NCBI GenBank assembly: GCA_020445645.1
Contig: JAGRGG010000088.1
Span: 1-32,485, forward strand
DNA: 32,485 bases
Reading direction: 5' to 3'
Origin: Geminicoccaceae bacterium
GTDB taxonomy: Bacteria > Pseudomonadota > Alphaproteobacteria > Geminicoccales > Geminicoccaceae
A program made the translations under genes and the position numbers. The notes under the pieces were generated by a model that was given only the letters and a program-made list of their open reading frames with translations, was not told the DNA's origin and searched no databases. This document shows, one piece after another, positions 1,497-23,982 of the stretch (its first letter is position 1; every line of letters starts with the position of its first letter).

Positions 1497-1573
1497 GGAA
1501 GAAGGCCGGATGTTCACGGAACGTTGCCCTCGGCAGAACGTTTGGCGCCTGCCCGCAACGTGAGGAAAACCGG

Positions 1574-2596: not shown

Positions 2597-2635
2597 CCCG
2601 GCGGCGACGGGGTGCGGTGGCGGGGCTTCCCGCCG

Positions 2636-2664: not shown

Positions 2665-2755
2665 AACCCCCGCTCGCCGGGGTCGTCTCGCGCGGCCGGA
2701 AATGTATTGACCCGGCCTTGCCGCGCGCCTTCGGTCTTCTGTGGGAACCGAAACG

Positions 2756-3067: not shown

Positions 3068-3098
3068 AGGCGGCGCGGCAAGCTAGGGAACCGGAGCG

Positions 3099-3371: not shown

Positions 3372-3396
3372 GCGCCGATCTTCCGGACGGACGGCG

Positions 3397-3423
3397 AGGG
3401 GCGGGCGGTGGTCCGCCCCTTTC
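3397..3423 (+). terminator. Terminator of rplU-rpmA
   Basis: AGGGGCGGGC (3397-3406) pairs with GTCCGCCCCT (3411-3420) across a four-base loop, with one G-U pair, and is followed by TT. It sits 25 bases after the L27 stop. The remaining bases to 3574 show no convincing gene. Confidence 0.55.
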
Positions 3424-3574
3424 GCGTTGCGGGTGCCGCGCCCATGGGAATGGCAACGCGCGACCATCCGTCGGGAAGGCCTGGGATGACGAAGTCCCCG
3501 GCGCAGGCGAGGGCCGACGACCGCGCCCGGATGAAGGAGAAAGGCCCCGCGCCGGCGGTCCGCGCGACGAAGCC

Positions 3575-4864: not shown

Positions 4865-4889
4865 CGTCGTTCTCCCTCGTCGCGGCCCC

Positions 4890-5411: not shown

Positions 5412-5477
5412 CGGGCGGAGACCTCCTAGGGGCACGCGACCGTTCTTAATCCCTCGGCCGCGTTCAGGAAAGACGAG

Positions 5478-7280: not shown

Positions 7281-8159
7281 CTAGTCCTTCGGATCGAGGC
7301 GGAAGGCGGGCAGGAGCCAGCGCGGCGCCGGCAGGTCGTCGCCCAGGAGCCCTTGCAGCGCGGCGTCCAGGTCCGCGCCCCGCCGGCCTTCGAGCGCCGC
7401 CTCGTGGACCCCGTTCATGACGAGCGCGCCGTCGATGCCGAAGGGGGATGCCCCCTTGATGTCGTGGTGGAGCGAGTCGCCCACCATGACGAGGCGGTCG
7501 GGCGCGACGCCGACGCGCTCCAGGGCCGCGCGGAAGATCGCCGCGTGCGGCTTGCCGACCCAGCGCACCTCGCCGCCGACCTCGGCGTAGTCCTGGGCGA
7601 AGCGCCCCGGCCCGTCGACGCGCCGCTCCCCTTCCAGGCTCACCACGTCGGGGTTGGTGCAGACGAGCGGCAGGCGGCGGCCGAGGGCGATGGCGAGTTC
7701 CCCATCCAGCCGGGCGCGGGCGTGCGCGTCGCCGTCGAGCCCGGCCAGCAGCACGAAGTCGGCCGTGTCCGCATCCACAAGGTCGAGGTCCAGCCCCTCG
7801 ATCGCCGAGCGGTCGCCGCCGCGCGAGACGAGGAGGCAGCGCCGGCCGAGGTCGGCGAAGAGGGGGTCGGTGCGTTCGCGGAGACCGAGCCACGCCGCCT
7901 CGCCCGAACTGACGAGCCCCGTGTAGAGGCTCCGCGGGATCCCCAGGCCCTCCAGCCGGGCCACGTTCGGCGCCGAGCGCTTGCCGGAGTTGGAGAGGAT
8001 GAGGGCCGCCCGCCCCTGCTCCCGCAGGCGAGAGAGCGCCGCGACGACGCCGGGAAAGGGCGCGACCCCGTCGTGGAGCACGCCGAACTGGTCGAGGAGG
8101 AACCCGTCGTAGCCCTCGATCAGCGGCTCGATGCCCGCGATGAACCGCGCGCCGCTCAT
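7281..8159 (-). CDS. HAD-IIA superfamily protein
   Basis: This 292-residue protein has the layout of class IIA haloacid-dehalogenase (NagD-like) phosphatases. Motif I is LLDQFGVLHDG with nucleophile Asp23, motif II is ILSNSGKRS around Ser56, motif III is Lys203 in VGKPH, and motif IV is MVGDSLHHDIKGA (Gly227-Asp228, Asp233). The cap domain lies between motifs II and III. The residue two after the nucleophile, normally an Asp that acts as acid/base, is Phe25. An aromatic residue here is, as I recall, shared by a little-studied HAD-IIA subgroup, so phosphatase activity should not be assumed. Its ATG overlaps the stop of the upstream kinase as ATGA. It may dephosphorylate or monitor an intermediate of the polyol route. 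Confidence 0.83.
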   Translation of the reverse strand: MSGARFIAGIEPLIEGYDGFLLDQFGVLHDGVAPFPGVVAALSRLREQGRAALILSNSGKRSAPNVARLEGLGIPRSLYTGLVSSGEAAWLGLRERTDPLFADLGRRCLLVSRGGDRSAIEGLDLDLVDADTADFVLLAGLDGDAHARARLDGELAIALGRRLPLVCTNPDVVSLEGERRVDGPGRFAQDYAEVGGEVRWVGKPHAAIFRAALERVGVAPDRLVMVGDSLHHDIKGASPFGIDGALVMNGVHEAALEGRRGADLDAALQGLLGDDLPAPRWLLPAFRLDPKD

Positions 8160-9439
8160 GCCTTTCCGGCCCCGATCCGGGCGAGGAGGGCGGCGCCGTA
8201 GGCGGCCTCCAGGTGGACGGGCTCCTTCATCGGCACGCCGAGCAGCCCCTCGCGGATGCGGGTCCAGGCTGGGTTGCCGGCGCCGCCGCCGACGGTGCGG
8301 ACGGAGCGCAGGGTCGGCGCCCCAAGATCCTCCAGCCGGCGGTAGGCGTCCGCCTCGACCCCCGCGATGCCCTCCAGGAGCGCCTGGAAGAACCGGGCGT
8401 CGTCGGCCGGACGGCCCTCGGGCTCGAAGGTCATGCCGGGATCGGCGACGGGAAAGCGCTCGCCCCGTCCCGGCAAGGGGTGCCAGTCGAGCCCGACGGG
8501 GTCGTCGGGGTCGAGCCCCGGCGTCAGCTCCGCCATCCGCTCGCCCGTGAAGAAGCGCAAGAGCGCCGCCCCCCCTGTGTTCGACGCGCCGCCGACGAGC
8601 CAGCGGCCCAGGATGCGGTGGCTGTAGACGCCGAACGCGGGCGCGAAGACGGGGGCGTCGGAGAGGAGCTTGAGCGTCAGGGTCGAGCCCAGCGCCGTGA
8701 CCCCGTCGCCGGCTTCGCTCGCCCCCGTGGCGAGGAACGAGGCGCAGCCGTCGGTCGTCCCGGCGACGGCGAGGCAGCCCTCGGCGAGACCGAGGCGGCG
8801 CGCGAGCCCCGGCTCCACCGGCCCGATCGGCGTGCCCGGCTCGGCCACTTCGGGCAGGAGGTCCATCCTGGCGCCCACGCCTTCGAGCCACCCCGGCCAG
8901 CGCCCGGCGACGGGGTCGTAGCCGAGCTTGAGGGCGTTGTTGGCGTCGCTGCGGCCCCATACCCCCGTGAGCCTGCCCGCGATCCAGTCGGCTTGGTGCA
9001 GGGCGTGAACGGCGCCCCGGTGGCGTTCCTGGAGGACGAGGAGGCGGGCGAGCGGCGAGGTGGCGCCGTGCGCCCCGCTCTCGGCCGGGGCATCCTCGCC
9101 GATCCGGGGGGCCAGATGCGCGGCGCTCGCGTCGTTGTACATCCCGGCGGGCGCGAGCGGGGCGCCGTCCTTGTCCGCGACGAGGAGCGTCCCCGACGTA
9201 CCATCGACGGCGAGCGCCTTGATCGACCCCGCCGCTTTCGCCGCCGCCTCGGCGATCACCGCCTGCACGGCATCCCACCAGAGCGCCGGGTCCTGCCTCG
9301 GCCCGCCGTCCGCCGCGTCGGGCGCCGGCAAAGGCCGCGCGGCTTGCGCCCGAACGGCCCCGGCGGCGTCGATGGCGATGGCGCGCACCCCGGACGTGCC
9401 GAGGTCGACCCCCAGGTAGAGCGCGCCCTCCCCCGGCAT
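8156..9439 (-). CDS. FGGY-family kinase, D-ribulokinase-like
   Basis: This is a short FGGY carbohydrate kinase (427 residues against about 480-550 for most of the family). The ATP-phosphate motif is GVDLGTSG at residues 10-17, and the catalytic base position is Asp230 in GTTDGCA. VDGTSGT near 79, YNDASA at 101-106, HQADWIAGRL near 148 and SDANNALKLGYDP at 164-176 match the compact plant/cyanobacterial kinases first named xylulose kinase-like and later shown to prefer D-ribulose. The C-terminal adenine-binding part is TVGGGAGNP followed by AAYGAALLA. It should phosphorylate a free ketose, so its presence beside an EryA-type kinase means the operon has two phosphorylation steps or two substrates. 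The start lies one base after the GlpD stop (TGAGATG), which implies coupling. Confidence 0.83.
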   Translation of the reverse strand: MPGEGALYLGVDLGTSGVRAIAIDAAGAVRAQAARPLPAPDAADGGPRQDPALWWDAVQAVIAEAAAKAAGSIKALAVDGTSGTLLVADKDGAPLAPAGMYNDASAAHLAPRIGEDAPAESGAHGATSPLARLLVLQERHRGAVHALHQADWIAGRLTGVWGRSDANNALKLGYDPVAGRWPGWLEGVGARMDLLPEVAEPGTPIGPVEPGLARRLGLAEGCLAVAGTTDGCASFLATGASEAGDGVTALGSTLTLKLLSDAPVFAPAFGVYSHRILGRWLVGGASNTGGAALLRFFTGERMAELTPGLDPDDPVGLDWHPLPGRGERFPVADPGMTFEPEGRPADDARFFQALLEGIAGVEADAYRRLEDLGAPTLRSVRTVGGGAGNPAWTRIREGLLGVPMKEPVHLEAAYGAALLARIGAGKA

Positions 9440-9440
9440 C

Positions 9441-10982
9441 TCAGGCCGTGACGGCGGGGCGGGGCGCCGGCCGACGCTCCAGCCAGCTTGCCAGCGCCGT
9501 CTTCTGCTCGGGCGTGAGGAACAGCCCCTGCTTCGTCCGCCTGACCAGGATGTCGTCGGCCGTCTCGGCCCACTCCTCCTCGATCAGAAAACGCACCTCC
9601 CGCTCGTAGAGGTCGCCGCCGAAGTGCCGGCCTAGGTCGGCGACCGCCTCGGCATCGCTTAAGATCGCCTCGGCGCGGGTGCCGTAGAGGCGGGCGTAGT
9701 GGCGGGCGAGCCCGTCCGGCAGCCAGGGGTGATGGGCCTTGAAGCCCTTCAGCCAAGCGTCGAAGTCCGCGTTCGGCATGTCGCCGCCCGGCAAATGCGC
9801 CTTCGCCGTCCAGGCCGGCTTCATCTCGGGGTAGAACGGCTTCAGCTTCTCGAGCGCGTGCTCCGAGAGCCGGCGGAACGTCGTGATCTTGCCGCCGAAC
9901 GCCGAGAGGATCGGTGCCCGCCCCTCGCCGCCGTCGAGTTCGAACGTGTAGTCGCGGGTGACGGCCGACGCCCCCTTCTCGCTGTCGTCGTCGTAGAGGG
10001 GGCGCACGCCCGAGTAGCTCGTCAGGACGTCCTCGGCCGCGAACTGCTTCTTGAAGTAGCGGTTGAGCACGGCCATGAGGTAGGCGACTTCCCCGTCGCT
10101 GATCGCCACGTCCTCGGCCCGGCCCTCGAAGGGGATGTCGGTCGTGCCGACGAGGGCGAGGTCGTCCTGGTAGGGGTTGATGAAGAGGAGGCGCTTGTCG
10201 GTGTTCTGCAGCACGTAGCCGTGGTCGCCCTTCCACCACCGCTTCATGATGACGTGGCTGCCCTTGACGAGGCGCACCCGCCGCTTCGTGTTGACGCCGG
10301 CGACGTTGCCCAGGACCTTCTCGACCCAGGGGCCGGCGGCGTTGACGAGGCCGCGGGCGAAGACGATCCGCTCGCCCTCCTCATTCCGCAGCGTCACCCG
10401 CCACAGCTTGCCCTCCCGCCGGGCGGAGAGGCACTCGGTCCGGGTCAGGATCTCGGCGCCTTTGTCGCGCGCGTCGACGGCGTTGAGGACGACGAGCCGG
10501 GCATCGTCGACCCAGCAGTCGGCGTACTCGAACGCTTTCTTGTACACGTCCTTGAGCGGCACCCCTTCCGGCACCTCGTGCAGGTCGAGGGCGCGCGTCG
10601 CCGGCAGGCGCTTCCGGCCCCCCAAGTGGTCGTAGAGGAAGAGGCCGAGCCGCACGAGCCACGCCGGGCGCTGCTCCGGGCTGTGGGGAAGGACGAGCCG
10701 CATCGGCCACATGATGTGCGGCCCCGCCTCCAGGAGCACCTCGCGCTCGATCAGCGCCTCGCGCACGAGCCGGAACTCGTAGTATTCGAGGTAGCGCAGC
10801 CCCCCGTGGATGTACTTGCCGCTGCGCGACGAGGTGCCCTGCCCGAGGTCGTCCTTCTCGCACAGGAGCACGCTCATGCCGCGCCCCGCGGCGTCGCGGG
10901 CGACGCCGACGCCGTTGATGCCGCCGCCGATGACGACGAGGTCGAGGGGCGACGCGGCCTCACCCTTGCCCTGGCTGCTCAT
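9441..10982 (-). CDS. GlpD/EryB-type FAD-dependent polyol-phosphate dehydrogenase
   Basis: This is a flavoprotein dehydrogenase of the glycerol-3-phosphate dehydrogenase family (about 513 residues), acting at the inner membrane and passing electrons to quinone. The FAD dinucleotide fold is VVIGGGINGVGVARDAAG, followed by EKDDLGQGTSSRSGK and HGGLRYLEYYEFRLVREAL, then GPHIMWPMR. LVKGSHVI, GTTDIPFEG, SGVRPLYDD and FGGKITTFR complete the pattern. Brucella and rhizobial EryB (erythritol-phosphate dehydrogenase) belong to the same family, and the operon context favours a tetritol or pentitol phosphate over glycerol 3-phosphate. I chose the ATG at 10982 because AGGGAG lies eight bases upstream. An ATG at 11000 would add six residues and overlaps the preceding small ORF as ATGA. 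Confidence 0.88.
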   Translation of the reverse strand: MSSQGKGEAASPLDLVVIGGGINGVGVARDAAGRGMSVLLCEKDDLGQGTSSRSGKYIHGGLRYLEYYEFRLVREALIEREVLLEAGPHIMWPMRLVLPHSPEQRPAWLVRLGLFLYDHLGGRKRLPATRALDLHEVPEGVPLKDVYKKAFEYADCWVDDARLVVLNAVDARDKGAEILTRTECLSARREGKLWRVTLRNEEGERIVFARGLVNAAGPWVEKVLGNVAGVNTKRRVRLVKGSHVIMKRWWKGDHGYVLQNTDKRLLFINPYQDDLALVGTTDIPFEGRAEDVAISDGEVAYLMAVLNRYFKKQFAAEDVLTSYSGVRPLYDDDSEKGASAVTRDYTFELDGGEGRAPILSAFGGKITTFRRLSEHALEKLKPFYPEMKPAWTAKAHLPGGDMPNADFDAWLKGFKAHHPWLPDGLARHYARLYGTRAEAILSDAEAVADLGRHFGGDLYEREVRFLIEEEWAETADDILVRRTKQGLFLTPEQKTALASWLERRPAPRPAVTA

Positions 10983-10996
10983 GGAAGCGGCTCCCT

Positions 10997-11083
10997 TCAT
11001 GCTGCCCCGGCCCTTCGGTCCTTCGCCTTCGGGCCGCAGGCCTTGAACCTTTCGCAGCTGCGCTCGTTCTCGGCGTCGTTCAT
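10997..11083 (-). CDS. Possible 28-residue small protein or leader
   Basis: This is a short open frame between the 2-hydroxyacid dehydrogenase stop (11101) and the GlpD-type gene. It encodes 28 charged residues, starting MNDAENERSC and ending AGAA, with two cysteines six residues apart. It has a good AGGAAAG ribosome-binding site six bases before the ATG, and its TGA overlaps an ATG at 11000 as ATGA. That ATG could be the GlpD start, and the next one follows 18 bases on with its own ribosome site. I recognise no family. It may be a real small protein, a translational coupler for the dehydrogenase, or chance. A perfect 12-base palindrome (11084-11095) covers its ribosome site. Confidence 0.4.
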   Translation of the reverse strand: MNDAENERSCERFKACGPKAKDRRAGAA

Positions 11084-11100
11084 GGAAAGCTTTCCTAACG

Positions 11101-12141
11101 TCAGACGCAGGGGTTGAGGAAAGGCTCGCCGCGCAAATAGCGGCCGACCTCGACCGCCGCCATCCGGGCGGCGATGCGCACGGTCGTCAAGGACGCGCCG
11201 GCGATGTGCGGGGTGAGGGTGACGTTCGGCAGCGAAAGCAGCGGGTGGTCGGCGGGCGGCGGCTCCTGCCAGAAGGTCTCCAGCATCGCCCCCTTGAGGC
11301 GCTTCGACTGGAGCGCCGCCGTCACCGCCTCGTAGTCCATCAAGGGCCCGCGCGCCGTGTTGACGAGGTAGGCGCCCGGCTTCATCCGCGCCAGGGCCGC
11401 GGCACCGATCATCCCGGTCGTCTCCGGCGTGACGCGGGGGTGCAGGCTGACCACGTCCGCGCGTTCGAGAAGCGCGTTCAGGTCGACCTGCTCGACCCCG
11501 TCCGCCCGGTCCTCGGCCGAGACCTCGACGTAAGGGTCGCACACCAGGATGCGGGGACCGAACGGCTTCAGGAGCCTGACGACGCGCGTGCCGATGTGGC
11601 CGTAGCCGATCAGGCCGACGACGAGTTCCGAAAGCTCCGGCCCCGCGGTATCGGCCCGGTACAGATCGCCCCGCCACTCGCCCCGGCTGAGCGAGACGTG
11701 GCCTTCGGTGATGAGCCGGGTCATGGAGATGATGGCGGCGATCGTGAACTCGGCCACCGCCGAGGCGTTGCGCCCCGGCGCGTTGACGACGGCGACCCCC
11801 CTCGCCTTCGCCGCCTTCACGTCGACGTTGACCGGCCCGCCGCGCGAGACCGCGACCAGCTTCAGGTCCGGGCAGCGGTCGAGCAGCCAGGCGTTGACCG
11901 GGGCGACGTGGGTGACGAGGATCTCGGCCCCTTCGAGCGGCGCCACGAGGTCCTCGGGCTCGCCGATGAACTCCTTCAGCCCTTCGAGCGGGGTTCCCTT
12001 CTCGCCGTGGCGCATCGGCCGGTCCGGCCAGGGAAGCTCGACGGTGCGGACGTCGAGGTCCACCCCCTCGATCCTCTCCAGGGCCCCGACGAACAGCTCC
12101 GGCTTCATGAAACGGTCGCCGATCACGGTGAGCTTGGTCAT
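11101..12141 (-). CDS. D-2-hydroxyacid dehydrogenase of the polyol operon
   Basis: This 346-residue NAD(P)-dependent enzyme belongs to the D-isomer-specific 2-hydroxyacid dehydrogenase superfamily. It has SRGGPVNVDV in the substrate domain near residue 99, GYGHIG at 179-184 for the nucleotide, Arg264 in NTARGP, a Glu at about 293 in FWQEPPP, and His312 in TPHIAGAS. The usual LDVF before the catalytic Glu is replaced by LETFW, which separates it from the dehydrogenase at 558-1496. Its start overlaps the kinase stop as ATGA (12138-12141), and AAGGAAA lies upstream. In the operon it may oxidise or reduce a sugar-acid side product such as glyoxylate or tetronate. The role is inferred only from position. 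Confidence 0.85.
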   Translation of the reverse strand: MTKLTVIGDRFMKPELFVGALERIEGVDLDVRTVELPWPDRPMRHGEKGTPLEGLKEFIGEPEDLVAPLEGAEILVTHVAPVNAWLLDRCPDLKLVAVSRGGPVNVDVKAAKARGVAVVNAPGRNASAVAEFTIAAIISMTRLITEGHVSLSRGEWRGDLYRADTAGPELSELVVGLIGYGHIGTRVVRLLKPFGPRILVCDPYVEVSAEDRADGVEQVDLNALLERADVVSLHPRVTPETTGMIGAAALARMKPGAYLVNTARGPLMDYEAVTAALQSKRLKGAMLETFWQEPPPADHPLLSLPNVTLTPHIAGASLTTVRIAARMAAVEVGRYLRGEPFLNPCV

Positions 12142-13718
12142 GGCGGGGTTTCCTTGACGGCTTTGGGGCGGCGCGCCGCGTGGAGGTCGGGCCAGACCGG
12201 GACCATCCGCCGGTAGCCTTCCCGGTAGACGGGGAAGAGGGCGTCGTAGCGGGCGGCGAGCGCGGGGTCGGGCGCCTCGGGCTCGCCGAGCGTGGGCTCG
12301 ACCCATTCGGCGCAGCAGGCGGCGAGGTCATCGTAGTGCCCGAGCGCCATCGCCGCCGTCATCGCGGCGCCGGCGGCGCCCGCCTCCTCCCGGTGGCTCG
12401 TGCGGACGGGGCGGTTCAGGCAGGCGGCGAGGATGCGGCGCAGGGCGCGGCTGCGCGCGGCGCCGCCGGCGAGGCGCACCTCTTCCGGGAGATCGCCCAT
12501 CGCGGCGTAGCAGTCGCGGGCGGCGAAGCCCAGGCCCTCGTAGACCCCGCGCATCAGGTCGACGAAGCCCGCGTTCATCGTGAGGCCGAGGAACTGCGCG
12601 CGCGCGAACGGGTCGACGAACGGGCCGCGCTCGCCCGCCTCGTGGATGAAGGGGTGGTAGAGCACCTTGCCCGGCTCGGCGTCGGCCACCATGCCGTCCA
12701 GACGTTGCAGGATCTCGCGCCGATCCGGGGCGTCGCCGAAGAGGGTCAGGACCTCCTCGGCCCGGCGCACGAGCCAGTCGATGTTGAGCGTCGCCGCCAT
12801 GTTGGACTGCATCTGCGCCCAGGTGTCGGGGGCCGGGAGGAACATGGTGTAGCCGGTGTGGGCCGGGTTCAGCGCGATCTGGTCCAGCCCGTGCGCGACC
12901 CGCATGTGCATGCCCGTCGTGCCGAGGACGGTGCAGCCCACCGTCCGCACGGGGTCGTAGAGCCCGCCGCCGAGCCCGGTGCAGATCACGTCGACGTAGG
13001 CGAGGACGACGGGGGTGCCGGGGAGCAGCCCGACGGCGCGCGCCGCGTCCTCGGTGAGCTTGTGGTGGGTGCGGACGCCGTCGACGATCGGCGGCAGGAG
13101 GCGGCGGCAGGAGGCTATGCCGAGAATGTCGAGGATCTCGGGCGCGTAGGAACCCTTCCTGAAGTCGCCGAAGGTGAAGCTGCCCTCGGAGGGGTCGGTG
13201 GCGCGGACGCCCGTGAGGTTCACGTAGAGCCAGTCCTTGCAGTGCATGGCGCAGGCCGCCCGGTCCAGCACGTCGGGCCGGTGCCGCGCCATCCAGGCGA
13301 GGTGCGCCCCTTGCATGCAAGCGTTGAGCCCGGCGCCGGTGAGTTCGTGGAAGCGCCGCCCGGCCTCGCCCTTGCGCAGGTCGGCGACGATCCCAGACGC
13401 CCGGCTGTCGAGCCAGAGCCACGCCGGGGCCGCGGGCCCGCCGGCCTCGCCCACCAGCCACGTCCCGTCGCCCTGCCCGGTGACGGCGAGCGCGGCGACG
13501 CGCCCCTTCAAGTCCGGCACGGCCTCGCCCAGGCGCCGCAGCACGCCGGCGGCATCCTCCCAGGTCGCGGCCATGTCCTGCTCGACCCCGCCGTCGCCCA
13601 ACTCGACGTAGCGGTTCGGCAGGGACGCGACGGCGACCTGCCGCCCCTCCAGGTCGAAGGCGACCGCCTTCATCATCGAGGTTCCGGCGTCGATGCCGAC
13701 GAGGACGTCCTTCGTCAT
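12138..13718 (-). CDS. EryA-type FGGY polyol kinase
   Basis: This 526-residue FGGY kinase looks, from memory, very like Brucella/rhizobial erythritol kinase EryA along its whole length. Shared blocks include GIDAGTS at 8-14, VTGQGDGTWLV at 79-89, WLWLDSRA at 100-107, HCKDWLYVNLTGVRATDPSE at 159-178, TFGDFR, LAYVDV with catalytic Asp243, GTTGMHMR and REEAGAAGAAM. It should phosphorylate a sugar alcohol with ATP in the cytoplasm as the committing step after uptake. It starts 12 bases after the second ATPase gene and overlaps the following dehydrogenase, so it is translated from the same message. Erythritol, threitol, ribitol or arabitol are all possible substrates. The missing erythritol isomerases argue against a plain erythritol pathway. 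Confidence 0.88.
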   Translation of the reverse strand: MTKDVLVGIDAGTSMMKAVAFDLEGRQVAVASLPNRYVELGDGGVEQDMAATWEDAAGVLRRLGEAVPDLKGRVAALAVTGQGDGTWLVGEAGGPAAPAWLWLDSRASGIVADLRKGEAGRRFHELTGAGLNACMQGAHLAWMARHRPDVLDRAACAMHCKDWLYVNLTGVRATDPSEGSFTFGDFRKGSYAPEILDILGIASCRRLLPPIVDGVRTHHKLTEDAARAVGLLPGTPVVLAYVDVICTGLGGGLYDPVRTVGCTVLGTTGMHMRVAHGLDQIALNPAHTGYTMFLPAPDTWAQMQSNMAATLNIDWLVRRAEEVLTLFGDAPDRREILQRLDGMVADAEPGKVLYHPFIHEAGERGPFVDPFARAQFLGLTMNAGFVDLMRGVYEGLGFAARDCYAAMGDLPEEVRLAGGAARSRALRRILAACLNRPVRTSHREEAGAAGAAMTAAMALGHYDDLAACCAEWVEPTLGEPEAPDPALAARYDALFPVYREGYRRMVPVWPDLHAARRPKAVKETPP

Positions 13719-13730: not shown

Positions 13731-14882
13731 CTAGGCCGCCGCCCGGACGCCCGGCGCCGCCGGCTCCAGCCCGTGCATGAGGGCGACCCCGCTCTCGGCG
13801 TCGAACAGGTGGATCGATTCGAGCGGCAGGGTGAGCGGCGCCTCGGATCCGGCCGGGACGTCGAGCGCGCCGTCGGTCACGGCGATCAGCGTGGCGCCGC
13901 CGAGGTCGATGCCGATGTGCGACTGGTCGCCGAGCCACTGGTTCGAGACCACCTGCCCCCTGAGCGCGCCGCCCCCGCCGATGGCGACCAGATGCGGGCG
14001 GATGCCGAGGTGGACCTCGTGCCGGTTGCCCAGGGCGTGGCCGGCGCCGCTCAGCGGCAGCTCGATCCCGAACGCGTCGTGCCCGGCCTCGTCGCCGGCG
14101 ATGAGCCTCGCCACCCCGCCGTCGCGCTCGACGCGGGCCTTGAAGACGTTCATCGGCGGCTCGCCGATGAAGGAGGCGACGAACAGGTTCGCCGGGCGGT
14201 CCTTCAGCTCGTGCGGCGTCGCCAGTTGCAGGAGCACCCCCGCCTCCATGACGGCGATCCGATCGCAAAGGGCCAGCGCCTCGGTCTGGTCGTGGGTGAC
14301 GATGATCGTCGTCAACCGCCGCTCGATGATCCACTCCTTGATGCGCGCCCGCAGGATCGCCCGCAGGCGGGGCTCCAGCTGCCCCATCGGCTCGTCGAGG
14401 AGGTAGAGGTCGGCGTTGCGGACGAGCGCGCGGGCGAGGCTCGCCCGCTGCTGCTGTCCCCCCGAGATCGTCGGCGGGTAGCGCTCCAGGATGTCGTTGA
14501 TCTCGAGCAGGTCCGCGATCCGCTTCACCCTGGCGTCGACCTCGGCCTTCTTCAGCCGGTCGCGGGAGAAGCCGAAGGCGATGTTGTCGCGGATCGTGAG
14601 CGGCGGGTAGAGCGCGTAGCCCTCGAACGCCATCGCCACGTTGCGCTGGGCGGGGGAGAGGCGGTTGACGACCCGGTCGCCGATCTTCACGTCGCCCTCG
14701 GTGACGCCCTCGAACCCGGCGATCATCCTGAGCGTCGAGGTCTTGCCGCAGCCGGATGAGCCGAGCAGGCCGATGATCTCGCCGTCGTCGATCGCCATGT
14801 TGACGTCGTTGACGGCCTTGAGCGCGTCCTTGCCGCCGTGGCCGTAGATCTTGCTGACGCGGTCCAGCGTGAGCGTCGCCAT
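13731..14882 (-). CDS. Polyol ABC transporter ATPase 2 (GlpT/UgpC-like)
   Basis: This is the second ATP-binding subunit of a CUT1-type importer, 383 residues, with an N-terminal nucleotide-binding domain and a C-terminal TOBE/OB regulatory domain. Walker A is GSSGCGKT at 41-48, the signature is ISGGQ at 139-143, Walker B is LYLLDEP with Glu164, and the switch His is His197 in VTHDQTEA. The Q-loop, normally FQ.YALYP, is FEGYALYP, so the Gln is Glu87. The D-loop reads QLEPRLR instead of NLDAKLR. The partner ATPase has a different set of changes. Two distinct ATPases followed by a GlpD family gene recall the rhizobial GlpSTPQV glycerol and Mpt polyol systems. The start at 14882 has AGGAGAGG upstream. 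Confidence 0.9.
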   Translation of the reverse strand: MATLTLDRVSKIYGHGGKDALKAVNDVNMAIDDGEIIGLLGSSGCGKTSTLRMIAGFEGVTEGDVKIGDRVVNRLSPAQRNVAMAFEGYALYPPLTIRDNIAFGFSRDRLKKAEVDARVKRIADLLEINDILERYPPTISGGQQQRASLARALVRNADLYLLDEPMGQLEPRLRAILRARIKEWIIERRLTTIIVTHDQTEALALCDRIAVMEAGVLLQLATPHELKDRPANLFVASFIGEPPMNVFKARVERDGGVARLIAGDEAGHDAFGIELPLSGAGHALGNRHEVHLGIRPHLVAIGGGGALRGQVVSNQWLGDQSHIGIDLGGATLIAVTDGALDVPAGSEAPLTLPLESIHLFDAESGVALMHGLEPAAPGVRAAA

Positions 14883-14893
14883 TCGTTCCTCTC

Positions 14894-15979
14894 CTATGCC
14901 GCCAGCCGCTCGCCGGTCGCCTCGTCGAACAGCAACGCCTTCTCGAAGTCGACCCGGGCGTGGACCTGCCTGTGGTCGCGCCCGAAGCGCTCGCCCCTGC
15001 TCTCGGAGCAGGTGGCGAACACCTCCTCCCGCTCCTTCGTGCGCAGGAAGAGGACGGTGCGGACGTTGAGCGGGGTCACGGCGTCGAGTTCGACCGGAAA
15101 GCTGCCCTCCGACGGTTCCTGCTCGACGTGCACGTCCTCCGGGCGGATGCCGATGAGGCAGGGCCGGTCCAGCCCCGCCCGCCCCTTCAGCCTGAGCGTC
15201 TGCCCCAGGACCGTGACCTCGTGCCCCCCTTCCCCCTTCGTCGGGCGGATCGGGTAGAGGTTGATCGTCGGATCGCCGAAGAGCCGCGCGATCTCGACGT
15301 GGCGCGGGCTCCTGTAGACCGCGGCCGGGTGGTCGACCTGCTGGAATCGCCCGTCGAACAGCACCGCGACCCGCTCGCCCAAGGCCATCGCCTCCTTGTA
15401 GTCCTGGGTGACGTAGAGCACGGTCGACTCGAAGCGCTTCAAAAGGCGCGGCAGTTCGAGGCGCATCTCGTAGCGCAGCTTCGCGTCGACGTTGCGAAGG
15501 GGGTCGTCGAGGAGGATGATCTTCGGCCGCCGGACCAGCGCCCGGCCCAAGGCCGTGCGCTGCTTCTGCCCGTTCGAGAGCTGGCGCGGCAAATGGTGGA
15601 GGACGTGGGCGATCTTCAGAAGCTCCCCCGTCTCCTGGACCTTCCGCTTCACCTCGGCCTCGTCGGCGCCCCTGGCCCGCAAGGGGCTGGCGATGTTCTC
15701 GAACGCGTTCATGTGCGGGTAGAGGGCGAAGTTCTGGAAGGCGACCCCGGTTTCCCGGACTTCCGGGCTCGTGCCGAGGACCGACTCGCCCCCTACCCGG
15801 ATGTCGCCGGCGTCGGGGGGGGCGACGCCCGAGATGAGGCGGAGGAGAACGGTCTTGCCGACGCCGGACGGGCCGAAGATCGCCACCATCTCGTTCTTCT
15901 CGATCGAGAGGGAGGCGTCCTTCAGGACTTCGTCCTTGCCGAACCTCTTGGCGACGCCGTCGAGGACCAGATAGCTCAT
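14894..15979 (-). CDS. Polyol ABC transporter ATPase 1 (GlpS-like), degenerate site
   Basis: This is the first ATP-binding subunit of the importer, 361 residues, with a C-terminal TOBE-like domain from about 240. Walker A GPSGVGKT (36-43) and the Q-loop Gln82 (FQNFALYP) are intact. The signature is LSNGQ (134-138) with Asn in place of the first Gly. Walker B is ILLDDP with Asp159 where the catalytic Glu belongs, and the switch His is Gln192 (VTQDYKEA). These changes suggest a weak or inactive hydrolysis site formed by this subunit's Walker motifs. Homology to the GlpS side of glycerol importers fits the two-ATPase layout. It sits 15 bases after the second permease gene and 11 bases before ATPase 2. 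Confidence 0.9.
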   Translation of the reverse strand: MSYLVLDGVAKRFGKDEVLKDASLSIEKNEMVAIFGPSGVGKTVLLRLISGVAPPDAGDIRVGGESVLGTSPEVRETGVAFQNFALYPHMNAFENIASPLRARGADEAEVKRKVQETGELLKIAHVLHHLPRQLSNGQKQRTALGRALVRRPKIILLDDPLRNVDAKLRYEMRLELPRLLKRFESTVLYVTQDYKEAMALGERVAVLFDGRFQQVDHPAAVYRSPRHVEIARLFGDPTINLYPIRPTKGEGGHEVTVLGQTLRLKGRAGLDRPCLIGIRPEDVHVEQEPSEGSFPVELDAVTPLNVRTVLFLRTKEREEVFATCSESRGERFGRDHRQVHARVDFEKALLFDEATGERLAA

Positions 15980-15994: not shown

Positions 15995-16834
15995 TCAGCC
16001 CTTGACCGCGCCGAGCGACAGCCCCTCGACCAGATAGCGCTGGGCGTAGAGCGCGAGCGCCAGCGTCGGCAGGATCGAGAGGACGACGGCGGCGGCGATC
16101 TGGCCGTACTGGATGCCGGACGCCGTGACGAAGGCGAGCGCCCCCACCGTGACCGGCTGCTTGTCGGCGGACGCCAGGATGAGCGCGAAGACGAAGTTGT
16201 TCCAGGCGAAGATGAAGGAGAGGAGGGCCGCGGCCGCGATGCCGGGCAGCGCCAGGGGGATCGAGATCTTCATGAAGGTCGAGAACCAGCTGTGCCCGTC
16301 GACCCGGTAGGCGTTCTCGATGTCGGGGCTGATGTCCTCGAAATAGCCGCGCACGATCCATAGGATGAGCGGCAGGGTGATCAGCTGATAGACCCAGATC
16401 AGACCGATATAGGTGTCGTTGAGCCCGATGTCCTGGAAGTAGAGGTTGAGCGGCAGGAGGACGAGCAGCGCCGGGGCGAAGCGGAACGAGAGGAGGGTGA
16501 AGGCGATGTCCTCGCTGCCGAAGAACTTGAAGCGGGCGAACGCGTAGGCCGCCGGCACGCCCAGGAGCAGCGAGAGGGCGACCGAGCAGAAGCTGAGGAC
16601 GAAGCTGTTCCACAGGTTCTGCATAAAGGCGAGTTCGAGCACGCCGGCCCCCGTCTCCAGCCGCCCCGAGATGAGGGCGGTGTAGTTCTGGAGGGTCGGC
16701 TCGAAGACGAGGCTCGGGGGGATCCTCAAGATCGTCTCGTTGGTCTGGAACGACATGAGGAACACCCAGACGATCGGGAACAAAAAGAACAGCCCGATCA
16801 GGGTGAGGAGGACGACGCGGATCGCGGGGTGCAT
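15995..16834 (-). CDS. Polyol ABC transporter permease 2 (MalG type)
   Basis: This 279-residue inner-membrane permease belongs to the binding-protein-dependent transport family. Six hydrophobic segments are visible, the first at about 6-28 and the last at about 246-265. The cytoplasmic EAA loop that contacts the ATPases is at about 173-193 (ENAYRVDGHSWF...ISIPLALPG), with the conserved Gly at 180. The sequence ends in LVEGLSLGAVKG, the usual MalG-type ending. It pairs with permease 1 to form the channel. The gap to the preceding permease gene is 16 bases, and the ATG at 16834 gives the normal length. Confidence 0.92.
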   Translation of the reverse strand: MHPAIRVVLLTLIGLFFLFPIVWVFLMSFQTNETILRIPPSLVFEPTLQNYTALISGRLETGAGVLELAFMQNLWNSFVLSFCSVALSLLLGVPAAYAFARFKFFGSEDIAFTLLSFRFAPALLVLLPLNLYFQDIGLNDTYIGLIWVYQLITLPLILWIVRGYFEDISPDIENAYRVDGHSWFSTFMKISIPLALPGIAAAALLSFIFAWNNFVFALILASADKQPVTVGALAFVTASGIQYGQIAAAVVLSILPTLALALYAQRYLVEGLSLGAVKG

Positions 16835-16850: not shown

Positions 16851-17774
16851 TCAAGCGACGCCGCGGGCGCGCTCGCGCAGCCGCAGCCAGTACTTGATGA
16901 ACTGGTGGCTCAGGAAATAGGTGATCGCCCAGAGCACCATGAGGATCGCGGCCGAGCGGCCGACGTTCGTGTAGGTGAAGAATTCGAGGTAGGCCTGGAC
17001 CTGGAAGACCATCAGCGTGTCGCCGGGGCCGCCCTGGGTCATGGCGTAGATGATGTCGAACTGCTGGATCGCGTCCAGCATCCGGAACAGCCCCGCCGTG
17101 AGGATGTAGGGAAAGAGCATCGGCAGGGTGATGCGGAAGAAGACGAAGGTCCAGGGCACGCCGTCGAGTTCGGCCGCCTCGAAGGGCTGCCTCGGCAGGC
17201 CGCGCAGCCCCGCCAGCAGGAGCACCATCATGAAGGGGGTGTAGACCCAGACGTCGACGAGCACGACGGTGAAGAGCGCGCTGCTCGGGCTCGACCCCCA
17301 GCGGAAGTCGGTGACGCCGACGAGGCTCAGGAGATAGCTGAAGATCCCGAAGTTGGGATTGGTCATCAGCTTCCACATGAGGGCCGCGATCGCGGGCGCG
17401 ATCATGAGCGGCAGCATGAGCGCGATGCTCATCGCGTTGTTGAAGGCGCTGGAGCGCTGGAGGAGCATGGCGATGGTGAGGCCCAGCACCAGCTCGATGC
17501 CGACGGTGAGGACCGTGTAGAGGAGCGAGACCCAGACCGTGTGCCAGAACACCGTATCGGTGAACAGGATCTTGTAGTTCTCGAACCAGATGAAGCCCTT
17601 CAGATAGGGCATCGCCAAGTTGTAGCGCTGGAGCGAGTACCAGACCGCCGTGACGAACGGCACCAGGATGCCGATGCAGACGAGCAGCGCCGGCAGGCTC
17701 AGGAGGTAGGGCAAGGCCGACTCGCCGAACGAGCGGCGGGGCGGCTTGCGGACGCCTTCGGCGACGGTGGCCAT
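16851..17774 (-). CDS. Polyol ABC transporter permease 1 (MalF/UgpA type)
   Basis: This 307-residue inner-membrane permease has six predicted membrane spans, the first near residues 22-46. The classical coupling loop EAAELDGVPWTFVFFRITLP is at 199-218, and DIIYAMTQGGPGD at 240-252 is typical of sugar permeases in this subfamily. The ATG at 17774 is preceded by GGAGGAG. The long open frame upstream of it is a shadow of the binding-protein gene. The gap to the binding-protein gene (83 bases) holds a hairpin, which may set the ratio of binding protein to membrane components. Confidence 0.92.
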   Translation of the reverse strand: MATVAEGVRKPPRRSFGESALPYLLSLPALLVCIGILVPFVTAVWYSLQRYNLAMPYLKGFIWFENYKILFTDTVFWHTVWVSLLYTVLTVGIELVLGLTIAMLLQRSSAFNNAMSIALMLPLMIAPAIAALMWKLMTNPNFGIFSYLLSLVGVTDFRWGSSPSSALFTVVLVDVWVYTPFMMVLLLAGLRGLPRQPFEAAELDGVPWTFVFFRITLPMLFPYILTAGLFRMLDAIQQFDIIYAMTQGGPGDTLMVFQVQAYLEFFTYTNVGRSAAILMVLWAITYFLSHQFIKYWLRLRERARGVA

Positions 17775-17857: not shown

Positions 17858-19297
17858 CTAGCCGAGGCCGGCCTGCTTCAGCTGGTTGTCGACGCTCGCG
17901 GCGAGCTGGTCGAGGCCCTCGTCGACCGGGACCTCCTTCGCCACCATCTTCTGCAACGACGCCGCCCACTCGGTCGTGAGGTTGAAGAAGAGCGGTTGCG
18001 GGGTGAAGTAGATCTTCGAGCCCGGCGCCGAGGCCTTGTACTGGTCGAGGTAGCCGGGGTAGTTGTCGCTGATCTTCTTCTGGAAGGTCTCGTCGTCCCA
18101 GACCGACTGGCGGACCGGGTTGACGAAGTCCATCTTGGTGGCGCCGAAGAGGGCGTGCTCGGCGCCGCAGGCCCACTGCATGAAGTACCAGGCCGCGTCC
18201 TGCTGCTCGCCGAACGAATTCATGGCGAGCGACCAGATCCAGACGTTCGGCGTCGGCCCCTTGGCCTTGGGGTTCGGGGCGAAGGCGGTGTAGGCGAGGT
18301 TGCCCGCCTCCTTGTTGTCGCCGCCGTTCATGAAGTATCCCAGGATGTCGGCGTCGTAGATCATCGCCGACGCGCCGGCGCCGAGGTCGGTGCCGACCTG
18401 GTACCACGTGTAGGTCGACCAGTTCTTCGGCCCGCTGTCCTGGATCATCTTGACCCACTGCTGGTGGAACGCCTTGCTCTCGGGCGTCGCCATCGCCGCC
18501 TTCAGCTTGCCGTCCTCCATCGTGAAGTCGCGCTGGTCGAAGTTCGTGTAGGCCGAGAGGAAGCCCGGGTGGATCGTCGCCCACGAGCGGGAGCCGCGCA
18601 CGCCGATGCCGTAGACGCCCTGGACGTCCTTTTGCATCTTGGCGGCCAGCTCCATGAGCCCGTCCATGTCCTTGGGCGGCTCGCCCCCGGCGCCGTCGAG
18701 CATCTTCTTGTTGTAGGCGATCGAGTTCAGCTCGAAGCCCCAGGGCAGCGCCCACTGCTTCGCCCCCTCGCCGCCCAAGGCCTCGCCCGGCACGCCGGAC
18801 CACGCCGTCGACTGGCGCAGGTTCGGGAGCACGTCGTCCCAGTTGAAGCCCGGCGCCGTCATGCTCTCGTCCTGGAGGAACTCGTTCGTGTCGACGAGCC
18901 AGCCGGCCGGGCCGTACTGCCACGTCTGGTAGGCGCCGGTCATGAAGGCGTCGTACTGCGACGAGCGCGACGAGAGCGCCGCCGTCACCTTGTCGAAGTA
19001 CACGTCCTCCGGGAACACGTCGTACTTCACCTCCATCCCCGTCAGGTCCTTGAACGCCTGGATGTCGGCGATCATGGCGTCGGTGTAGGGGTGCTTGTTG
19101 AGGAGAAGCGTGACGGTCTTGCCCTTGTGCTTCATCCAGTCGAAGTCGGCGGCCAGCGCCCGGGTCGAGGCCGTGCCCCAGAGCACGTTGGCGCTCGCCG
19201 CCGTGAGGCCGAGCGCCCCCAGGCGCCGCCCCAGCTCGCGCCGGCTCATGCCCTTCCTCATGCAGGCGTCGACGGCGTCCTTCGCTTTCTCGTACAT
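17858..19297 (-). CDS. Periplasmic polyol-binding protein, Tat-type signal
   Basis: This is an extracellular solute-binding protein of the CUT1 (MalE-like) class, about 479 residues, that captures the polyol and delivers it to the permeases. After a 16-residue lead comes MSRRELGRRLGALGLTAASA, a twin-arginine type signal, with likely cleavage near RALA-AD (about residue 50). The mature part contains TVTLLLNKHPYTDAMIADI, YDVFPEDVYFDKVTAALSSR and YDAFMTGAYQTWQYGPAGWL, which I associate with binding proteins linked to SorC regulators and FGGY kinases in alphaproteobacteria. The start at 19297 has GGGAG upstream; a TTG at 19321 is less likely because it lies inside a palindromic operator candidate. 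The ligand is a sugar alcohol by context. Confidence 0.9.
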   Translation of the reverse strand: MYEKAKDAVDACMRKGMSRRELGRRLGALGLTAASANVLWGTASTRALAADFDWMKHKGKTVTLLLNKHPYTDAMIADIQAFKDLTGMEVKYDVFPEDVYFDKVTAALSSRSSQYDAFMTGAYQTWQYGPAGWLVDTNEFLQDESMTAPGFNWDDVLPNLRQSTAWSGVPGEALGGEGAKQWALPWGFELNSIAYNKKMLDGAGGEPPKDMDGLMELAAKMQKDVQGVYGIGVRGSRSWATIHPGFLSAYTNFDQRDFTMEDGKLKAAMATPESKAFHQQWVKMIQDSGPKNWSTYTWYQVGTDLGAGASAMIYDADILGYFMNGGDNKEAGNLAYTAFAPNPKAKGPTPNVWIWSLAMNSFGEQQDAAWYFMQWACGAEHALFGATKMDFVNPVRQSVWDDETFQKKISDNYPGYLDQYKASAPGSKIYFTPQPLFFNLTTEWAASLQKMVAKEVPVDEGLDQLAASVDNQLKQAGLG

Positions 19298-19316
19298 GCG
19301 ACTGCTCTCCCTGTTG

Positions 19317-19332
19317 CCCAAATCCGTTTGGG
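19317..19332. promoter_or_regulatory. Palindromic operator candidate before the binding-protein gene
   Basis: CCCAAATCCGTTTGGG is a perfect 6-bp inverted repeat with a four-base centre. It sits 19 bases upstream of the binding-protein ATG in the 70-base gap after the regulator gene. It is AT-richer than its surroundings and is a reasonable binding site for the SorC-type regulator. No clear promoter hexamers were found beside it. Confidence 0.4.
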
Positions 19333-19367: not shown

Positions 19368-20342
19368 TCAACCCCCCGCGCCGGTCGCGGTGAGGGCGCG
19401 GGCGGTCGCCTCGTCGGTGACGAGGCCGGTGATGGCGCCCGTGCGCAAAACGGCGTCGATGGCGCGGGCCTTGGTGGCGCCGCCGCAGACCGCGACCACC
19501 TGCTTGCCCTTGAGGTCGTCGAGCTTGAGCCCGATCGAGCGGCGGTTGAGGTCGATCGGGAGCGGCACCCCGTCCTCGTCGACGAACTGCCCCAGCACCT
19601 CGCCGACCGCCCCCGCCTCCTGCAGGCGGGCGAAGTCCTCCGGCCGGATCATGCCGGTGAGGCGGAGAAAGGCGTTGTCGCCGATCTCGCCGATGCCGAC
19701 GAGGCAGGGGTCGGCGCGCATCGCAAGGTCGAACACCGGGCGCAGGCTCCGTTGCGCCGTCAGCACGTCCCGGTCCTCGCCGCTGTCGGCGATGAAGGGG
19801 GCCGGCATGAAGTAGCTCTCGCTGCCCGTCCGCTCGCACAGGCGGTGGATGATGTCGAACGGGTTCGCCTGCGCGTTGTGGATCAGCCCGCCCAGGAGCG
19901 AGACGAAGCGGGTGCCGTCCCGCCGGACGCGGGGCAGGTTCTCGACGACGGCGGCGAGCGTCCGCCCGTGCCCGACGCCGATGATCGGGTGCCCCCCCCC
20001 TTCCAGAAGGCCGTTCAGGTAGCGGGCGCCCGCGTTGCCGAGTGCCGCCAGCGGCAAAGGCCCGTCGTCCAGCGCCGGGGCGACGACCGCGAGGTCGAGC
20101 CCGTAGCGTTGGATCAGCCCCTCCTCCAGGGCCGCGCAGTCGGCCGACGTGCCCTCGACGAAGACCTTGACGATGCCGCGCTGGTGCGCCTTGGCGATCA
20201 GCCTCGTCACCTTGATCCGCGACAGATGCAGCCGCGCCGCGATGTCCTCGTGCGTGTACCCGCCGATATAGGAGAGCCACGCGGCCTGCGCCGCCAACCC
20301 CGCCTCCACGTCGCCGTCCCCCCTGGACCTGCGTTCGTACAT
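19368..20342 (-). CDS. SorC/DeoR-type sugar-binding regulator
   Basis: This is a transcriptional regulator of the SorC family, the family of the erythritol regulator EryD. It has an N-terminal helix-turn-helix (YTHEDIAARLHLSRIKVTRLI, about residues 29-49) and a long sugar-phosphate-binding domain with GVGHGRTLAAV, LLGGL, MPAPF, GIGEIG, GEVLGQFVDEDG and AVCGGATKA. It should repress or activate the polyol operon depending on a phosphorylated intermediate. From the ATG at 20342 it has 324 residues, the usual size. I prefer that start because a promoter at 20371-20399 predicts transcription from about 20364, after the alternative ATG at 20372. It is the first gene of the operon and probably regulates itself through the palindrome just upstream. 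Confidence 0.9.
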   Translation of the reverse strand: MYERRSRGDGDVEAGLAAQAAWLSYIGGYTHEDIAARLHLSRIKVTRLIAKAHQRGIVKVFVEGTSADCAALEEGLIQRYGLDLAVVAPALDDGPLPLAALGNAGARYLNGLLEGGGHPIIGVGHGRTLAAVVENLPRVRRDGTRFVSLLGGLIHNAQANPFDIIHRLCERTGSESYFMPAPFIADSGEDRDVLTAQRSLRPVFDLAMRADPCLVGIGEIGDNAFLRLTGMIRPEDFARLQEAGAVGEVLGQFVDEDGVPLPIDLNRRSIGLKLDDLKGKQVVAVCGGATKARAIDAVLRTGAITGLVTDEATARALTATGAGG

Positions 20343-20345
20343 TTT

Positions 20346-20358
20346 AACAGGTTCTGTT
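20346..20358. promoter_or_regulatory. Palindromic operator candidate before the regulator gene
   Basis: AACAGGTTCTGTT (5-bp perfect arms, three-base centre) lies four bases upstream of the regulator ATG and downstream of its predicted promoter, in the only AT-rich patch of this region. The placement suits autorepression. Its sequence differs from the palindrome at 19317, so the two may not be bound by the same protein. Confidence 0.35.
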
Positions 20359-20370
20359 TTTCTGTTCACC

Positions 20371-20399
20371 ATTGAACGCCTTTGCCCCCTGGGAGTCAA
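20371..20399 (-). promoter_or_regulatory. Promoter of the polyol operon regulator
   Basis: On the minus strand TTGACT (20399-20394), a 17-base spacer and TTCAAT (20376-20371) match the sigma-70 consensus at 5/6 and 4/6. Transcription would start about 22 bases before the ATG at 20342. Confidence 0.45.
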
Positions 20400-21888: not shown

Positions 21889-21937
21889 ACTGTTGCTTGG
21901 CAACAGTCACCTCCGACGACAGGCTTGCCCAAGCCTG
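21889..21937. promoter_or_regulatory. Two perfect palindromes before the defence gene
   Basis: ACTGTTGC/GCAACAGT (21889-21907, three-base centre) and CAGGCTTG/CAAGCCTG (21920-21937, two-base centre) are perfect 8-bp inverted repeats 12 bases apart, 55 bases before the DUF262 start. They may be operators for the cassette or structures at its left border. No promoter hexamers are obvious. Confidence 0.4.
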
Positions 21938-21992
21938 CCAAAGGGGACAAGGCTAAGGAACAAAAACTGCCAATGGAAGGAGTTCACGTTCC

Positions 21993-23982
21993 ATGAAGAT
22001 CTCCACCATCCTCGACCACATCGACAGCGGGCACATGGCGCTGCCCGAGTTCCAGCGCGGCTACGTCTGGAACGGGGAGCAAGTGAAGGGGCGTTCGACT
22101 CGCTCTACCGCCGGCACCCGGTGGGTGGCCTGCTGGCGTGGGTCACGAAAGCGAAGTCGGCCGCCCATCGCGGCGACGGGCCGCGCGCAGCGGGCATCGT
22201 CAAGCTGCTGCTCGACGGGCAGCAGCGGATGACCTCGCTCTACGGCGTCGTGCGTGGCAGGCCGCCCAGGTTCTTCGACGGCAACGTGCAATCCTTCACG
22301 GGGCTGCGCCTCCACCTCGACACCGAGACCTTCGCCTTCCATCAGCCGATGAAAATGCAGGGCGATCCGCTATGGATCGACGTCACCGGCCTCATGCGCG
22401 AGGGAACGGCGGGGTTGGGCGGCTTCGTCACGGCCTTGAGTGCCTGCCCGGATCTGGCGCCTAAAGTAGTCGGCGACTACGCGGGGCGGCTAAGCCGCCT
22501 GCTCGACGTGATGGACGTGGACCTGCACGTCGAGGAAGTCACCGGTACCGTCAAGACGCTGGACGTGGTGGTGGACATCTTCAACAAGGTCAACAGCGGC
22601 GGCACCAAGCTTTCCAAGGGCGACTTGGCGCTGGCCAAGATCTGCGCCGAATGGCCCGAAGCCCGCGATGCCATGAAGCCAAGCTCAAGGCGTGGGCCGA
22701 AACCGATTACCACTTCAACCTCGACTGGCTGCTGCGCTCGGTCAATACGGTGCTGACGGGCGAGGCAAAGTTTCAGTTCCTGCACGACGAGGCCGCCGCC
22801 GACGTTCAAGAGGGCCTCAAGCGGGCCGCGAAGTACATCGACACCTGCCTCAACCTGATCGGCGGCCGGCTGGGGCTGGATCACGATCGGGTCTTCTTCG
22901 GCCGTTTCGGCGTGCCGGTGATGGTGCGCTACCTCGACCGGCGCGGCGGCATGTTGAACGAGAAGGAGCGCGACAAGCTCCTGTTCTGGTTCGTGCAGGC
23001 GGGCATGTGGGGACGGTTCTCGGGTTCGACGGAATCGTTCATCGACCAGGACCTCGCCGCCCTGGAAGGCCCGGACGGCGGGCTGGACAAGCTGCTGGAG
23101 CAGTTGCGCCTCTGGCACGGCGGCCTGCGCGTCGAGCCCGGACATTTCACCGGCTGGAGCCTGAGCGCGCGCTTCTACCCGGTGCTCTATCTGCTGACCA
23201 GGATGGGACGGGCGCGCGATTGGGGCACGGGGCTGCCGCTCAAGGCCGGCCTGCTCGGCAAGATGAACCGGCTGGAAGCGCATCACGTCTTTCCGAAGTC
23301 ACGGCTCTACAAGCGGGGCTTCAAGCACGCGGAGGCGAACGCGCTCGCCAACTTCTGCTTCCTGACCAAGGACACGAATCTCGCCATCAGCGACCGGCTG
23401 CCGGAAACGTATTTTCCCGAGGTCGAGCGGGCGCATCCCCGCGCGCTGGCATCGCAGTGGATTCCCGACGATCCCCGGCTTTGGAAGATCGAGAACTTCC
23501 GCGATTTCCTGGAAGCCCGGAAGGTCCTGCTCGCGGCGGAAGTCAACCGGCGCATGGAGGAACTGCTGCACGGCGATACGCGCTGGCTGGCGGGTCCGAC
23601 GGCGCCCGTCCCTGCCGTTCCCGCCGTGATGGGTGGCATCGCCGACGAGGAGGAAGAGGCGCGGATCGAAGAGTTGGGCGGTTGGATGGAGACGCGCGGC
23701 CTGCCGCGCGGCGAGGCGGGCCACGATTTCGCCGACCCGGCCACGGGTGAGCAGCGGGCGATCTTCGACCTCGCTTGGCCGAACGGCATCCAGGAGGGAC
23801 TCAGCCGCCCGGCCGCCGTGCTGCTAGGCGAGGACAAGGAGGTCATCGCCCTCGCCAGCGGGGTCGGCTACCGCTGCTTCACGACGGTCGCGGCGCTCAA
23901 GCGCTACGTGGAGACGGAGATCCTGGCGCGGGGGGGTGCCCGCATCAGGGAGCCCGGCGGCTTGAAGCGGGGCTCGGCCTGA
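21993..23982 (+). pseudogene. DUF262/HNH (GmrSD-like) restriction protein, twice frameshifted
   Basis: A single-chain homologue of GmrSD-type modification-dependent restriction enzymes, an anti-phage function. It starts at ATG 21993 behind AAGGAG. The DUF262 half is seen as LPEFQRGYVW (about 22041), DGQQRMTSLY (22213) and FNKVNSGGTKLS (22580). The HNH half (DUF1524-like) contains EAHHVFPKS (about 23275). The reading frame shifts twice: after VKG at the G-run 22088-22091, and after AMK at 22678. In each place one missing G restores the frame (GGGGCG for GGGGGCG; AAGCC for AAGGCC) and yields an uninterrupted protein of about 663 residues. Base composition is visibly less GC-rich than the neighbours, which suggests transfer. 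It may be a decayed gene or an intact gene with two sequencing errors. No methylase or partner gene lies nearby. Confidence 0.85.

Follow-up and report, generated by a model that had tools for sequence, protein, structure and literature searches.

The window analysed here is the whole stretch of 32,485 nucleotides of contig JAGRGG010000088.1, from a Geminicoccaceae bacterium. Two complete ABC ATPase genes lie on its minus strand at 13731-15979. ATPase 1 (A1; 14894..15979) is a CUT1/UgpC-like ATP-binding subunit of 361 amino acids, and ATPase 2 (A2; 13731..14882, with an ATG at 14882) is a CUT1/UgpC-like ATP-binding subunit of 383 amino acids with a TOBE_2 domain. The ABC_tran domain (PF00005) is present in both proteins. 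The UgpC, MalK and GlcV profiles are the closest to both, with UgpC the best match in each case (1.1e-85 for A1 and 1.8e-94 for A2), but neither protein reaches the curated UgpC cut-off of 432 bits (287.8 bits for A1 and 316.7 bits for A2).

The ATPase genes are embedded in a cassette of transport and catabolic genes, all on the minus strand. Next to A1 are a permease of MalG/UgpE type (15995..16834), a permease of UgpA/MalF type (16851..17774), a substrate-binding protein (SBP_bac_1; 17858..19321, its true start probably lying within the open reading frame) and a SorC/DeoR-type regulator with a sugar-binding domain (19368..20399). The domain content is that of a CUT1 operon, with BPD_transp_1 (PF00528) found twice and the PF01547 binding protein once. 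The UgpA/MalF-type permease has a canonical EAA loop, whereas the EAA-type loop of the MalG/UgpE-type permease reads E-x-A-Y-R-x-x-G and is kept in 95 sequences; this asymmetry, conserved on both sides, parallels the unequal ATPases. Next to A2 are an FGGY carbohydrate kinase (12138..13718), a D-isomer 2-hydroxyacid dehydrogenase (11101..12141), a GlpD-like FAD dehydrogenase (9441..11000) and a second FGGY kinase of 427 amino acids (8156..9439), and a HAD hydrolase is also found among the genes of the cassette region. Within 8156-13718, the GlpD-like enzyme scores far above the glycerol-3-phosphate dehydrogenase cut-off (797 bits against 352) and both FGGY kinases fall below every curated cut-off.

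The order SorC regulator, binding protein, permease, permease, A1, A2, FGGY kinase, 2-hydroxyacid dehydrogenase, GlpD-like dehydrogenase is repeated in most complete loci, including one on S. meliloti pSymB, and the cassette is a conserved and widespread alphaproteobacterial cassette of polyol type. An identification of the S. meliloti locus with SMb20484-20490 was dropped, as correspondence to that locus (L116) was not demonstrable; Smb20484-20487 have been tied to psicose transport (PMC4961836). Because the nearest solved relative of the binding protein is the sorbitol-binding protein 4rya (E 5e-18), a sugar alcohol is most likely the substrate of the importer. Upstream of the importer's regulator lies a glucose/sorbosone-dehydrogenase-like protein (PF07995; 20491-21903, minus strand). 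Further along, on the plus strand, a GmrSD N-terminal-like open reading frame (21893-22756) overlaps a long open reading frame in another frame (22651-23982), which suggests either a frameshifted or broken gene of GmrSD type across 21893-23982 or an assembly error.

A1 aligns with E. coli MalK over residues 4-247 of both proteins (phmmer), and residue numbering is therefore common to the two. The Walker A motif of A1 (GPSGVGKT, residues 36-43; 15851..15874) and its Q-loop Gln82 (15734..15736) are canonical, and its D-loop (RNVDAKL, 162-168; 15476..15496) retains Asp165. The signature is LSNGQ (134-138; 15566..15580), with Asn136 in place of Gly, while Asp159, in D158-D159, stands at the position of the catalytic Glu (15503..15505) and Gln192, in VTQD, at that of the switch His (15404..15406). 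A2 has the Walker A motif GSSGCGKT (41-48; 14739..14762) and retains the catalytic Glu164 in LDEP (14391..14393) and the switch His197 in VTHD (14292..14294). Its Q-loop has Glu87 for Gln (14622..14624), its signature opens as ISGGQ rather than LSGGQ (139-143; 14454..14468), and its D-loop (GQLEPRL, 167-173; 14364..14384) contains Gln168, Glu170 in place of Asp, and Pro171. An earlier note on this DNA had read Asp159, Gln192 and LSNGQ in the first ATPase and Glu87, LDEP, VTHDQ and a QLEP D-loop in the second, and translation shows all of these calls to be right.

We gathered relatives from 40 related genomes, 385 genomes of the class and a species-level contig collection, in which orthologues (E <1e-90) were separated from paralogues (E >1e-72) by a clear gap. 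The resulting 95 A1 and 93 A2 sequences, from collections that share some genomes, were reduced to 83 and 80 by dropping rows at least 97% identical. The relatives span Alphaproteobacteria at about 47-72% identity, and an A2 orthologue adjoins A1 at every locus whose contig reaches far enough. D159, Q192 and Q82 are invariant in A1 (each 95/95), as are E87, H197, Q168, E170 and P171 in A2 (each 93/93); the A2 Walker A motif is likewise invariant and Glu164 is present in all 92 sequences readable at that position. Asn136 of A1 has a single exception, a Gln, among 95 sequences. The third position of the A2 signature is Gly in 75 relatives and Ala or Ser in 18 of the 93 (16 and 2, respectively). 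The earlier note had asked whether these positions are fixed, and they are: the same invariance was found in the non-redundant sets, where random variation was sought among the 83 and 80 relatives and none was seen.

Generic CUT1 paralogues from the related genomes and from rhizobial plasmids have Q/G/E/D/H at the five positions in 45 out of 45 cases. At the DNA level, the pattern DDP...VTQD at the A1 spacing occurs once in the window's own genome. A search of 398 Pseudomonadota genomes recovered the own genome, three other A1 orthologues and one chance match, and the exact DNA pattern was absent from the sampled genomes outside Alphaproteobacteria (about 260 genomes).

A change from Asp to Glu, from Gln to His or, in the D-loop, from Glu to Asp requires one third-base purine/pyrimidine change in each case. 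We counted third-base changes on trees of non-redundant sequences, using invariant fourfold-degenerate columns as the reference. Purine/pyrimidine changes averaged 14.3 per column in A1 (n=45, minimum 3) and 13.2 in A2 (n=57, minimum 1), and no fourfold column in either gene had zero. The third base of the D159 codon switched between C and T 16 times or more and never gave Glu; the A2 Glu170 codon underwent 20 such third-base switches, all A/G, and the Q192 codon 5, also all A/G. No purine/pyrimidine crossing was seen at any of these codons on the trees of non-redundant rows. As third-base changes are frequent but never lead to the canonical residue, the canonical residues are being selected against, as would be any change at a residue required for function, with the D159 and E170 counts weighing most. 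Fixed residues indicate constraint, and their fixation does not tell what the constraint is for.

A sister type of tandem CUT1 pair is found in the same family of bacteria, at L156 (2611-4828, plus strand), L157, L161 and L162. The motifs of its first subunit are TFESYALYP, ISGGQ, LDEP and VTHDY, and those of its second subunit are AFE[TS]YALYP, LSGGQ, LDEV and VTHDQ. The L156-type pair has the Q-loop Glu in common with A2 and VT-x-DY in common with A1, but it differs in having Glu in both Q-loops and in keeping the catalytic Glu and the switch His intact in both subunits. In a tree built without the long-branched GlpS/GlpT and L155-type rows (described below), A1 joined the first L156-type subunit (100/98) and A2 joined the second (100/99). 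This tree indicates that the two pairs share one ancestral pair, and the parallel descent of both subunits supports A1 and A2 as partners. By parsimony, with canonical outgroups, the heterodimer is older than its degeneration, with Glu159 and His192 having been lost after the two pairs split. Because the Q-loop Glu of the L156-type goes together with otherwise intact sites, Glu87 alone is unlikely to cripple a site. The earlier note had listed Glu87 among its substitutions in catalytic motifs; on the evidence of these four loci it probably does not disable its site.

In ABC dimers each ATP is sandwiched at the interface: one subunit supplies Walker A and Walker B, the Q-loop and the switch residue, and its partner supplies the signature and the D-loop. 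Two unlike subunits would therefore form two unlike ATP sites. We consider it likely that A1 and A2 power a heterodimeric CUT1-type importer (MalFGK2/UgpBAEC-like) with one degenerate, slow site and one active site. Site I would consist of the A1 Walker motifs, Asp159 and Gln192 facing the signature and QLEP D-loop of A2; ATP bound here would be hydrolysed slowly or not at all and would clamp the dimer together. Site II would consist of the A2 Walker motifs, Glu164, His197 and Glu87 facing the LSNGQ signature and intact D-loop of A1, and would hydrolyse the ATP that resets the pump. We infer the pairing of A1 with A2, the slow site I, the active site II, the use of about one ATP per cycle and the polyol substrate alike.

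The assignment of roles to the two sites draws on ABC exporters. In these, a Walker B Glu-to-Asp change, often accompanied by an H-loop change, marks degenerate sites at which hydrolysis is far slower than the transport cycle, although such Asp sites can still turn over slowly (PMC7756269). TM287/288 has an aspartate of this kind, and its mutation did not further reduce the residual ATPase activity (PMC5216877). Because exporter Glu-to-Asp sites are slow and mutation of the TM287/288 aspartate left the residual ATPase no lower, site I probably acts as the clamp and site II probably as the motor. The hallmark of a non-Glu Walker B residue together with an altered H-loop in one ATP-binding domain, fixed across the family, is found here (D159 and Q192, 95/95). 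A degenerate signature in the partner is absent from most A2 sequences, which have ISGGQ; the D-loop is altered instead. As the A2 signature is intact in most members, site I is less degraded than its counterparts in TM287/288 or GlpS/GlpT. Its Asp may still support turnover, and site II, with the unusual Glu87 and Asn136, could be slowed too. The earlier note's proposal of two unequal sites in a heterodimer is supported in part, and the A1 Walker site that it chose is the likelier slow one. Its term 'complementary' was loose, since D159 and Q192 of A1 fall with the A2 D-loop in one composite site and E87 of A2 falls with N136 of A1 in the other.

Two further kinds of unlike CUT1 ATPase pair provide a comparison. 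At the rhizobial glycerol locus (L117), GlpS has Thr or Ser at the switch position in 31 of 31 sequences and an altered Walker A motif, mostly GxTLxGKT. GlpT, over 31 loci, keeps its Walker residues and His but has a signature of the form L-[TSG]-[AP]-[DE] (L-T-A-D-type). First subunits of the L155-type have Pro in place of the switch His (11/11), and second subunits have the signature [LI]-[AS]-EGE with intact Walker residues and His (6/6). The L155 locus itself (111-5785, minus strand) encodes a CUT1 importer of this type, with the substitutions fixed in the sampled genomes. In both kinds of pair a single composite site takes both the loss of the switch His and the defect in the partner signature, and the other site, formed by the Walker residues of the second subunit and the signature of the first (LSGGQ or LSGGE), is ordinary. 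The window's own genome also encodes a GlpS at L216 and, at L209, an L155-type pair that is complete. In a 69-row tree GlpS was placed next to A1, but its branch measured 3.6 changes per column, and the GlpS and A1 losses are therefore not shown to be independent. The loss of the switch His in the L155-type looks separate from the others, because first subunits bearing His lie between them in the tree.

Unusual fixed residues occur in both composite sites of the A1/A2 pair, and both sites might hydrolyse ATP, each of them retuned, with Asp and Gln slowing site I and the Q-loop Glu and Asn signature slowing site II, in a slow, tightly coupled machine that uses two ATP. The slow turnover of exporter Asp sites (PMC7756269) fits such a machine, as does the A2 signature, which is intact in 75 of 93 sequences. 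We nevertheless regard it as unlikely: both subunits of the L156-type pairs have the Q-loop Glu and still keep the catalytic Glu and the switch His, which makes Glu87 a poor candidate for a crippling change, and one good site is the rule in GlpS/GlpT and the L155-type. It is less probable still, and by some distance, that A1 and A2 each form homodimers, which would drive a single permease pair as alternatives to each other, or that A1 is a regulator outside the pump. The L155-type, in which the permease genes separate the two ATPase genes, lends this arrangement some plausibility, but A1 and A2 are constantly adjacent, the two permeases are unlike, the descent of both subunits matches that of both subunits of the sister tandem, and an A1 homodimer would carry two Asp/Gln sites.

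Divergence alone could also suggest neutral decay or family drift, with A1 losing its function and the substitutions having no mechanism behind them. A1 and A2 score about 140-180 bits against each other and about 200-250 bits against generic CUT1 subunits, so that both have diverged. Against this, the residues are invariant in 83 non-redundant A1 sequences, the reading frames are intact and the cassette is conserved, and the D159 codon changed silently at its third base 16 times or more without once yielding Glu. Neutral drift in A1 is rejected by the codon analysis and we give it almost no credence; judged from the sequences, the substitutions in A1 and A2 are not drift.

The heterodimer with a clamping site and a hydrolysing site would extend to importers an unequal-site design described chiefly in export pumps. 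For ABC exporters, the reason why many heterodimers retain a site that hydrolyses poorly is still regarded as an open question (PMC5216877). The same logic would here operate in a sugar-type importer that depends on a binding protein. Importers of this class are usually described as having two identical ATPases, and the sequence evidence that selection retains the weak residues is clear. In the literature searched we found no CUT1 importer described as having a degenerate ATP site, which is weak evidence as most subscription journals lay outside the search. We are evenly divided on the broader proposal that heterodimeric CUT1 importers of Alphaproteobacteria turned one ATP site into a clamp more than once, by different residues at the catalytic and switch positions (Asp and Gln in A1, and at the switch Thr or Ser in GlpS and Pro in the L155-type). 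If this is true, the design of one motor and one clamp arose in importers independently of exporters, and the window's genome has all three kinds. The intact L156-type and the differently altered GlpS/GlpT and L155-type relatives form a natural comparison set for coupling, directionality and ATP cost.

Among known importers of polyols, MptABCDE transports erythritol, adonitol and L-arabitol. MptD and MptE were sought on pNGR234b as possible counterparts of A1 and A2 and were not located there; an ery-like cluster of GlpD-like, FGGY and SorC genes near 754 kb, which may or may not be the mpt locus, has an RbsA-like ATPase of 508 amino acids instead. A tandem on the same plasmid near 407 kb (L154) was considered and does not belong to the A1/A2 family, having near-canonical motifs. 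RbsA-type fused ATPases of CUT2 importers have two unlike ATP-binding domains, as do the OppDF/DppDF peptide importers (Dpp: PMC12136057). DppD and DppF both have the catalytic Glu, which was mutated to Gln in that study (PMC12136057). These systems are likewise importers with unlike ATP-binding domains, but they belong to other families.

TM287/288, TAP1/2, BmrCD and TmrAB resemble the A1/A2 pair in having the Walker B Glu-to-Asp change in one ATP-binding domain, often with an H-loop change, and in their asymmetric D-loops (PMC7756269, PMC5216877). They differ in having an exporter fold with fused ATP-binding domains and in belonging to an unrelated lineage, whereas the ATPases and permeases here are encoded by separate genes and no domain is fused to a transmembrane domain. 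The degenerate site of TM287/288-type exporters also has a deviant signature, while that of A2 is mostly intact. MalFGK2, UgpBAEC and SmoEFGK share with the present system a binding protein, two BPD_transp_1 permeases, ATPases nearest to UgpC/MalK and the residue register of E. coli MalK. Their ATPase is a homodimer, whereas here there are two unlike genes, with A1 lacking the catalytic Glu and the switch His and A2 having the Q-loop Glu.

The closest parallels are within CUT1 itself. GlpS/GlpT (pRL9 of R. johnstonii 3841) are also two unlike CUT1 ATPases in which degeneration is one-sided, and to this extent the comparison proposed in the earlier note holds; the family and the substitutions are different. 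GlpS keeps its Glu, LSGGQ and NLD, and one GlpS/GlpT site is canonical by motif. The locus has the order glpD-S-T-P-Q-U-V with a DUF2160 protein, and thus differs from the present cassette in order and partners. Identity of A1/A2 with GlpS/GlpT is ruled out by the Gln and GPSGxGKT of A1, the ISGGQ of A2 and this gene order. The L155-type is similar in being a CUT1 ATPase pair with a one-sided loss of the switch His and an altered partner signature, but it retains the catalytic Glu in both subunits, its defects fall in one composite site, and its ATPase genes flank the permease genes.
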